Translations under genes and position numbers: made by a program | Part shown: positions 37,440-39,929 of the stretch, in pieces | Layout: the number at the start of each line of letters is the position of its first letter | Numbering within the stretch: position 1 is the first letter of the stretch | Assembly (NCBI RefSeq): GCF_003634215.1 | Contig: NZ_RBWX01000008.1 | Location: forward strand, 558,001 to 622,000 | DNA length: 64,000 bases | Reading direction: 5' to 3' | DNA from: Sphingosinicella microcystinivorans | Lineage (GTDB): Bacteria > Pseudomonadota > Alphaproteobacteria > Sphingomonadales > Sphingomonadaceae | Notes under the pieces: generated by a model | Told to the model about the DNA's origin: nothing | Databases searched by the model: none | Seen by the model: only the letters and a program-made list of their open reading frames with translations

Positions 37440-38288
37440 CTAGCTGACGAGCGAGAGCCTGGGAAGCGTCGGAAGCTGTCGGCGCAGGCGGATGCTGTGA
37501 CTCATGACCGCAGCGCCGTTTGCAGCGAACTGCGTGGGCGTCATCCCCACGAACGTGCGGAACTCGCGGATGAAATGCGACTGGTCGTAGAAATCCTCCC
37601 CCGCGATATCGAACCAGCGCGCATCGGGATCGACACTGATCTGCACCGCCGCACGCAGGGCGCGATATTTGCGCATCAGCAGCTTGGGCGGCGCGCCGTA
37701 GGTGCGGCGGCACAGGCGTTCCACCTGCCGCGCCGAGCGGTCCGCCACGCCGATCAGCGCATCGACACCGCCGGGGCTGCCGCGCACCAGCCAATCTTCC
37801 ACGAGCATTCCGAAACCGAGATCCTGCCGCGCGGCCTGTCGACGTGCCATGGAAAGGAAAAAGGCGTCCGCCGCCGCAACGAGATGATGATCGGATGCGC
37901 CGTTCTGCATGCGGCACAGCGCTGAACGCGCCGCGCTTCCGGCAACATCCTCCAGCGGCAGCATCGTGTCGGCCATCTCATCGGAATCAACGCCGAAAAA
38001 ACGCATCCAGCCATCGGACATGATCCCGGCGCCGAACACCAGTGCCGGGCCTTCGATCACCATGCCGAGCGGCAGGCAGCGCGGGCCGAACAGGCTGGCG
38101 CCGAGGCCACGCCGCACGCTGCCATCTGGCCAGGTGAGACTGGAATCGCCGCGAATCAGAAAGCGGACATTGGGAAGCTCCGCACGCATCACATCGGTGA
38201 TGCGCCCCGGGCCGATCTCGACGACATAATAGCTCGAAAGCAGCCGCCGAAGCGGCGGCGATGGCGAGTAGTAGCGCATCGAGAACAT
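37440..38288 (-). CDS. AraC-family transcriptional regulator
   Basis: 282 residues. The C-terminal two-HTH domain is at about residues 165-265: VDALIGVADRSARQVERLCR and then RWFDIAGEDFYDQSHFIREF, followed by RTFVGMTPTQFAA, the AraC hallmark. The N-terminal half (YYSPSPPLRRLLSSYYVVEI) is a DUF6597-like sensing domain of unknown ligand. It lies upstream of the SUF regulator on the same strand but with an 83-base gap and an intervening promoter, so it is probably a separate unit. Confidence 0.88.
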   Translation of the reverse strand: MFSMRYYSPSPPLRRLLSSYYVVEIGPGRITDVMRAELPNVRFLIRGDSSLTWPDGSVRRGLGASLFGPRCLPLGMVIEGPALVFGAGIMSDGWMRFFGVDSDEMADTMLPLEDVAGSAARSALCRMQNGASDHHLVAAADAFFLSMARRQAARQDLGFGMLVEDWLVRGSPGGVDALIGVADRSARQVERLCRRTYGAPPKLLMRKYRALRAAVQISVDPDARWFDIAGEDFYDQSHFIREFRTFVGMTPTQFAANGAAVMSHSIRLRRQLPTLPRLSLVS

Positions 38289-38387
38289 CAGACTGCGACC
38301 GACCTTTCGTGCACCCTGCCTGAGCCGAAAGTTCCGGCACAGATACCAAAGCTTGCGCCGCCCGGCGAGTCGCTGTTCGCAACCGAC

Positions 38388-38424
38388 AAAAAAACGGGGG
38401 GTCCGGGTTGGAGCGGACCCCCCG
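38388..38424 (-). terminator. Strong minus-strand terminator T1
   Basis: CGGGGGGTCCG (38395-38405) pairs perfectly with CGGACCCCCCG (38414-38424), loop of eight. On the minus strand the stem is followed by seven U (plus-strand A-run 38388-38394). No annotated minus-strand gene ends here, so it must end an unannotated transcript. Confidence 0.85.
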
Positions 38425-38510
38425 GTCAGTCGGGGTCGTGGATGCCCGGAGGGGGCATAGGAGACGAACCCTTGGGTCGCAGGACTGCGTTTAGGCAGGT
38501 CCCGTCAAAG
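38388..38510 (-). ncRNA. Candidate small RNA, downstream copy
   Basis: Minus-strand region ending in terminator T1. Before the terminator is a short hairpin ATGCCC-CCTCC-GGGCAT (38459-38442 area) whose loop has a CCUCC anti-Shine-Dalgarno-like core. Sequence blocks match the neighbouring copy: AGTCGGGGTCGTG (plus strand, 38428-38440) against AGTGAGGGTCGTG, and AGACGAACCCTTGGGTCGC against GGACGTCCCCTGAGTCGC. The 5' end is not defined. Confidence 0.4.
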
Positions 38511-38556
38511 CCGCGTCAAAATGCTGTGAGCGATTCGCAAAAACGTCGTCAGCGCG

Positions 38557-38592
38557 AAAAAGAAGGCCCGGACGCATTGAAACGCCCGGGCC
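38557..38592 (-). terminator. Minus-strand terminator T2
   Basis: GGCCCGG (38565-38571) pairs with CCGGGCC (38586-38592), extended by two more pairs after one mismatch; on the minus strand the stem is followed by TTCTTTTTC. Like T1 it has no annotated minus-strand gene upstream. Confidence 0.75.
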
Positions 38593-38690
38593 AGAAAGTG
38601 AGGGTCGTGTTCATTCCGGCCTGCTGGTTACCGGAAGAAAGGACGTCCCCTGAGTCGCGAGGCGGACCCTAGCGGGCAGCCCAGACCGTG
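38565..38690 (-). ncRNA. Candidate small RNA, upstream copy
   Basis: Minus-strand region ending in terminator T2, about 125 bases if it starts after the TACAAT hexamer at 38698-38693. A hairpin TTCCGG/CCGGAA (38614-38636) precedes the linker shared with the downstream copy (plus strand AGTGAGGGTCGTG, 38597-38609) and the block GGACGTCCCCTGAGTCGC (38641-38658). The same order of elements in both copies suggests tandem duplication of one RNA gene. Confidence 0.4.
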
Positions 38691-38876
38691 GATTGTACGA
38701 ATCCGACATCCGACCGGCTTCATGTTTTGATCCAGAGGTTTACGCCCTTTCGCCTTCGCAAAGTGAAGCGCCGCAATGGCCGGGGGTTACGGCATACACC
38801 GAGTCGCGCTTTTGCGCCGTGACGTGCGCGCTTCCTTTTGACCATCGGGCCGTCGCTGCGCTAAGGCTTGCAGCAT

Positions 38877-39929
38877 ATGCAGATCCCTTACGGGCTGGTT
38901 CGCCCCGTCCTCTTCAAGCTTGATGCCGAACGCGCGCACCGCCTGACGTTACGGTTGCTGGGCGCGATGCCGCCATCGCGGATTGCTGAAGACCCGCCCA
39001 GCCTGCGGACAACCGTGGCGGGGCTGCGCTTTGCAAACCCCGTGGGCATCGCCGCAGGCTTCGACAAGAACGCCGAAGTGCTGAACCCGCTGCTGCGGCT
39101 CGGCTTCGGTTTTGTGGAGGCGGGAACGGTGACGCCGCTGCCGCAGCCGGGCAACCCGAAACCGCGCATGTTTCGCCTGATGGAAGATCAGGCCGTGATC
39201 AACCGGCTTGGCTTCAACAACAACGGCCTTGAACAGGCGCTCGACAAATTCAAGGAGCGCGCCTGGCATCGGGGACCCCGCGGTGTGACCGGGCTCAACG
39301 TCGGCGCAAACAAGGACTCACGCGACCGCATTGCCGATTATGCGCTTTCGGTGGAGCACGCCGCGCCGTTCGTCGACTACATCACGGTCAATATCAGTTC
39401 GCCCAACACGCCGGGGCTGCGCACGCTGCAATCGAAGGACGAGCTTGCCGAACTGCTGGGCCGCGTGATGGATGCGCGCGGCCACCGCAAGACACCGATC
39501 TTCCTGAAGGTCGCCCCCGATGTCACCGATGCCGACATTGGCGACATCGCGGTCGCGGTCGTGTCGGCAGGTGTGGACGGCCTGATCGTTTCGAACACCA
39601 CAATCGAGCGGCCGGACACGTTGAAAAGCCAGCACGTCTCCGAAACCGGAGGACTTTCGGGCCGCCCGCTGATGGTGCGCTCGACGGAGGTGCTGCGCGC
39701 GTTCCGGCAGGCGACCGTGGGCGCCGTGCCGCTGATCGGTGTCGGCGGCATCGCGAGCGCCGACGACGCCTATGCAAAGATTCGGGCGGGCGCGAGCCTT
39801 GTGCAGCTCTACACCGCGCTCGTCTATCAGGGTCCCAGCCTCGTCGGGGCGATCAAGACGGGGCTCGCCGCGCACCTTCGGGCAGACGGCTTCGAACGCG
39901 TTTCGCAGGCCGTGGGCGCCGACGCCTAA
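38877..39929 (+). CDS. pyrD: Dihydroorotate dehydrogenase (quinone), class 2
   Basis: Membrane-associated flavoenzyme of pyrimidine synthesis that passes electrons to quinone. 350 residues from the ATG at 38877 (MQIPYGLVRPVLF, the membrane-contact helix), ten bases after AAGG; a TTG at 38868 is the alternative. Landmarks: NPVGIAAGFDKNAEVLN, NRLGFNNNGL, VNISSPNTPGLRTLQ (catalytic Ser region), and GVGGIASADDAYAKIRAGAS for FMN phosphate. Confidence 0.96.
   Translation: MQIPYGLVRPVLFKLDAERAHRLTLRLLGAMPPSRIAEDPPSLRTTVAGLRFANPVGIAAGFDKNAEVLNPLLRLGFGFVEAGTVTPLPQPGNPKPRMFRLMEDQAVINRLGFNNNGLEQALDKFKERAWHRGPRGVTGLNVGANKDSRDRIADYALSVEHAAPFVDYITVNISSPNTPGLRTLQSKDELAELLGRVMDARGHRKTPIFLKVAPDVTDADIGDIAVAVVSAGVDGLIVSNTTIERPDTLKSQHVSETGGLSGRPLMVRSTEVLRAFRQATVGAVPLIGVGGIASADDAYAKIRAGASLVQLYTALVYQGPSLVGAIKTGLAAHLRADGFERVSQAVGADA

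Follow-up and report, generated by a model that had tools for sequence, protein, structure and literature searches.

Few sRNAs have been characterized in sphingomonads, Sphingopyxis suhB and the Zymomonas Zms RNAs being examples, and these bacteria are important pollutant degraders. Among described tandem siblings, OmrA and OmrB of the enterobacteria are 88 and 82 nt long (PMC4211561), and in Agrobacterium only one of the two AbcR siblings requires the LysR-type regulator VtlR (PMC7486931, PMC4211561). Here we describe two predicted sRNAs, U and D, encoded in tandem on the minus strand in a 64,000-nucleotide stretch of the Sphingosinicella microcystinivorans genome (the window). Like OmrA/OmrB, they are of similar size, share a common 5' end (the part that pairs in OmrA/B), differ in their middles, and end in intrinsic terminators, although we claim no sequence kinship, the predicted promoters of U and D differ, and the family to which they belong occurs only in Sphingomonadaceae. 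AbcR1/AbcR2 of the Rhizobiales are likewise alphaproteobacterial tandem siblings beside a regulator gene (PMC7486931, PMC4211561), and the dependence of a single AbcR sibling on VtlR resembles the split promoters predicted for U and D. However, AbcR uses internal motifs where the conserved unpaired part of U and D is the 5' end, the neighboring gene here is AraC-type, and neither U nor D has an Rfam match at threshold. With the suhB/mmgR alphaR8 RNAs (RF00519), such as SuhB of Sphingopyxis granuli (PMC6563040), they share a hairpin-linker-terminator layout in the same bacteria, but U and D score below the threshold of that family, lack its CUCCC core, and occupy another genomic place.

As far as sequence can tell, U and D represent a new family whose general type of regulator is already known, present in Sphingosinicella as a tandem pair with different predicted promoters. 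The family offers a model fit for Rfam, start-site predictions almost to the base, and one candidate target, while the Sphingosinicella pair would offer a naturally occurring example of siblings under split promoters and so bears on why bacteria keep siblings.

The pair lies in a gene-free stretch between an AraC-type regulator gene (start codon at 38288) and pyrD (ATG at 38877 or an upstream TTG at 38868), in which we found no credible minus-strand gene. The original prediction of two related sRNA genes started from two strong minus-strand terminators with no gene to end, and these, at 38395-38424 and 38565-38592, are indeed the two best of the region, both having an 11-pair stem and a T-run. 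The blocks of the form GACG..CCC..GTCGC, the hairpin, and the linker that it placed before each terminator are all present, and the linkers, AGTCGGGGTCGTG and AGTGAGGGTCGTG, match at 11 of 13 positions as it had said. The features of the locus are as follows, with scores from the covariance model R1 described below and with z values for folding against shuffles, which both RNAs surpass.

37440..38288, minus strand: AraC-type regulator gene downstream of the RNAs (Pfam HTH_18, 9e-11), candidate target and possible regulator of U
38295..38300, minus strand: GGTCGC in the araC translation start region, candidate pairing site, in 6/6 genus genomes
38388..38480, minus strand: predicted sRNA D, ~93 nt (R1 39.2 bits, E 1.7e-8; fold z -4.0; 83% invariant in the genus), with unpaired 5' end GCGACCCAA, two-part stem-loop, linker, and terminator 38395-38424
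38488..38493, minus strand: putative -10-like TAAACG of D, TAAAC kept in 6/6 genus genomes
38514..38519, minus strand: putative -35-like TTGACG of D, kept in 6/6 genus genomes
38557..38658, minus strand: predicted sRNA U, ~102 nt (R1 29.9 bits, E 6.4e-6; fold z -4.2; 91% invariant in the genus), with unpaired 5' end GCGACUCAG, two-part stem-loop, linker CUCACUUUC, and terminator 38565-38592
38666..38671, minus strand: putative -10-like TAGGGT of U, placed by the family position of a conserved TA at about -12
38692..38708, minus strand: 17-bp element preceding U, TGTCGGATTCGTACAAT (consensus TGTCG-N7-ACAAT), where an activator presumably binds, at roughly -51 to -35
38868..39929, plus strand: pyrD (TTG 38868 or ATG 38877; Pfam DHO_dh 3.5e-86), divergent neighbor and syntenic marker, outside the RNA unit

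Compared directly, U and D are alike in one 8-mer only (CACGACCC), and their gapped local alignment does not rise above dinucleotide shuffles, 915 of 2000 of which reach its score (250 of 2000 for the part before the terminator). Since this pairwise likeness is no better than chance, the homology of the two rests on third sequences. The R1 model was built from a seed of 11 RNAs of other genera, none from Sphingosinicella, a seed chosen because MAFFT aligned the divergent members too poorly for model building. In the window, R1 finds exactly two places, D at 39.2 bits and U at 29.9 bits, with the next best at 8.9 even when the unfiltered run is included, and it finds their orthologues in every genus genome examined, so that both RNAs are present in all six, the source genome among them. 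The whole region is 87-91% conserved in the five other Sphingosinicella genomes, and invariance within the genus runs from 100% in the upstream element through 91% in U and 83% in D to 43% in the spacer between pyrD and U; a nucleotide-similarity search beyond the genus did not find the region and returned two short chance matches only.

The original prediction had proposed a covariance search for compensatory changes, and this search, run across genera, bears out the paired structure: in an alignment of 47 members, 18 of 20 pairs have changed on both sides, and 96.5% of cells are paired versus 71.8% in shuffles, a count that leans towards structure because the alignment was fitted to the model. 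The architecture seen in unfitted single-sequence folds agrees with the model. U and D are homologous and are members of one RNA family. The independent R1 matches, the conservation in the genus, and the compensatory changes across genera together support the predicted tandem of two related sRNA genes, with D either duplicated at this locus or derived from a copy that came from another place. A small peptide encoded in U or D was considered and rejected, since indels among the genus genomes remove the ATGs or shift them.

Upstream of pyrD in other genera of the Sphingomonadaceae, several carry one minus-strand RNA of the same layout: about 75-100 nt, an unpaired 5' end GCGACCC, a two-part stem-loop, a linker, and a terminator, encoded divergently from pyrD. 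A pattern joining the upstream element to GCGACYC occurs in 152 of 298 Sphingomonadaceae genomes, mostly once each, and the reversed pattern occurs in none; all of the loci fetched with it (30/30) encode GCGACCC, a stem-loop, and a strong terminator. A second covariance model, R2, whose seed includes U and D, matched 104 of 246 genomes of the order under strict filters that lose weak members, and in the source genome it returned only U and D at E <= 0.001. Outside the order, about 237 genomes of the class gave three weak matches, which resemble gene ends with ordinary terminators. Neither the window nor 18 loci from other genera match any Rfam 15 family at the gathering threshold, and a literature search found no paper on a GCGACCC RNA, the Zymomonas papers holding no match in their main text. 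On these genomic comparisons, the predicted GCGACCC RNAs are an uncatalogued, Sphingomonadaceae-wide family that is not in Rfam. One genome carries both a second tandem RNA copy (locus L172) and, away from pyrD, an extra copy that has an element to itself and precedes a peroxidase-like gene (locus L228).

Across 64 distinct loci, which were retrieved with a pattern that itself fixes part of the spacing and motif result, the first nine RNA positions are nearly invariant (GCGACCCGA), the end of the element lies 33-34 nt before GCGAC in 63, and the TA of a -10 box lies about 12 nt upstream of the RNA. The middle part and the terminator vary freely provided that pairing holds, and this combination of a conserved unpaired 5' end with a freely varying remainder is the signature of a 5'-seed sRNA. 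The 5' end reads GCGACCC in D and GCGACUC in U, a single change that is invariant in the genus, and it is unpaired in both folds. It is this 5' end that forms the conserved unpaired part of the RNA, instead of the CCUCC loop of the downstream copy that had been suggested to pair with ribosome binding sites; half of the six genus genomes (3) have that loop, it is not a feature of the family, and the suggested pairing is not supported.

In the six genus genomes, TGTCG-N7-ACAAT occurs once per genome, before U only, and D, which has no such element, is placed in the family by the covariance model instead. U may thus retain the ancestral and presumably activator-controlled promoter, with the element at the -35 region, while D would be driven by a different promoter of the TTGACG/TAAACG type, and because the two promoters differ, U and D probably respond to different signals. 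Outside Sphingosinicella, the element is also found at genes other than the sRNA. It is doubled before the sRNA at one locus (L237, two copies about 36 bp apart) and at another, separate locus (L225, copies 22 bp apart), which would fit paired binding of the regulator at these places. GANTC sites, the targets of CcrM methylation, lie between the element and the transcript start in 41 of the 64 loci, a raw count that might hint at cell-cycle control through GcrA/CcrM.

The reading that we consider probable is that U and D are paralogous, separately transcribed and separately terminated sRNAs that act in trans through their 5' ends and belong to a new Sphingomonadaceae family. We infer a transcript from each copy that starts at, or within 1-2 bases of, the G of GCGAC(C/U)C, whose first 7-9 nt would stay unpaired and which would end in an intrinsic terminator with a U-tail. 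Acting in trans, the 5' end would then pair at the translation start of its target mRNAs, whose translation would fall, and the best candidate for a direct target is the AraC-type regulator encoded just downstream.

At the araC start, GGTCGC occupies the place expected for the Shine-Dalgarno sequence (38295-38300), and it is complementary to the 5' end of D (GCGACC) and, with one G-U pair, to that of U (GCGACU). In a first set of loci, GGTCGC was found at the start codon of an araC-type gene in 14 of 36, and a scan along the RNA confines the excess of complementarity to the araC start to the first seven nucleotides. With 40 further loci the total comes to 18 of 65 loci and 9 of 32 genera, where permuted 6-mers average 1.8 loci and 1.3 genera and the best other permuted 6-mer reaches 6 genera, but several neighboring genes and motifs were inspected before the araC site was found, so some selection is built into these figures. 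The replication set alone is marginal for GGTCGC (3 of 19 genera, equaled by 5 of 60 permutations), and in it GGGTCG is found in 4 of 19 genera, the best of 30. The site is absent in most genera, some genomes retain the RNA and its element with no adjacent araC, and for the 9-nt complement of the D 5' end before an ATG we found no site common to more than two of the six genus genomes. The araC start is therefore a suggestive lead for the pairing site of the 5' end, not proof of it. We also considered pyrD as a target and rejected it; of its seven apparent matches, four are the sRNA gene itself and three come from one genus.

If the AraC-type protein activates the sRNA through TGTCG-N7-ACAAT, which overlaps the -35 region, and the 5' end of the RNA in turn blocks araC translation, the locus would form a self-contained feedback module, maintained throughout the Sphingomonadaceae, whose control is split between the two copies in Sphingosinicella, with U as the regulated sibling and D as an independently driven second copy. 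We put this forward tentatively and think it rather unlikely. Loci of one genus differ in whether an AraC-type gene separates the sRNA from rrf2-suf (L158 versus L155 and L157), yet the sRNA and the element stay, and such variability within a genus speaks against a strict need for that araC.

The genes around the RNA bear on whether it is a separate transcript at all. The two hairpins could instead be attenuators arranged in tandem within the araC 5' leader, termination at which sets araC expression, and it suits this reading that they lie on the same strand as araC, that the last terminator is about 100 nt before the araC start, and that an araC-like gene comes next in 36 of 64 loci. However, in 10 loci the next gene is rrf2 of the suf operon, in 18 it is a different gene or an unidentified one, the extra copy noted above precedes a peroxidase-like gene, and no alternative antiterminator fold is apparent in single-sequence folds. 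On the other side of the RNA, pyrD lies divergently within 400 nt in 54 of the 64 loci, and no locus has it in the other orientation. The RNA and its element stay constant while the downstream genes vary, which argues against the leader of one operon, and we regard attenuation as improbable. That the locus holds no RNA genes, and merely two GC-rich terminators that resemble each other by chance, would agree with the failure of the direct U-D alignment to exceed shuffles, but it is confronted by the independent model matches, the covariation, the conservation, and an element at fixed spacing, and its probability seems to us nearly negligible.

Two further alternatives involve suhB. D, and weakly U, might be the suhB/mmgR (alphaR8) sRNA of the source genome, for D is the best RF00519 match that the genome contains (32.8 bits, E 5.9e-5 in a 592-base search; U has 14.1 bits). 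Its score is nevertheless below the gathering score of 41, its relatives in the genus reach only 26-29 bits, and R1 scores it higher, at 39.2 bits, than RF00519 does. The conserved unpaired CUCCC core of suhB is not found in D, where the aligned stretch reads CCACGACCCCG, a more typical suhB candidate exists at C2:202566, and the best 30 suhB loci of the Sphingomonadaceae share none of the neighboring genes of the window. We rejected suhB membership for U and D on the sub-threshold scores, the missing core, the different genomic place, and this separate suhB-like RNA, and consider it very unlikely. CrfA of Caulobacter is a sponge of the alphaR8 RNAs SisA-D (PMC12559287), and U and D could be sponges of suhB in the same manner, given that most Sphingomonadaceae genomes have suhB. 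When an RNA was paired with suhB from its own genome, however, the duplex energies were no better than shuffles for most of six pairs, nor for D, and a sponge function is hard to credit. We thus return to trans-acting, 5'-end-pairing sRNAs as the preferred reading of U and D.

The separate suhB/alphaR8-like sRNA of the source genome lies outside the window (L003:1485-1570, equal to G000:C2:202566-202631), scores 29.6 bits, and reads as a typical suhB, with a hairpin, AUCCUCCCCAAGGAUU, and a terminator; since it falls below the Rfam cut-off, automatic annotation will miss it. Many Sphingomonadaceae genomes carry suhB in several copies, and several have it in close tandem pairs (for example G147:C50:2499 / 2861, G040:C10:100449 / 100673, and G062:C1:5051054 / 5051245).
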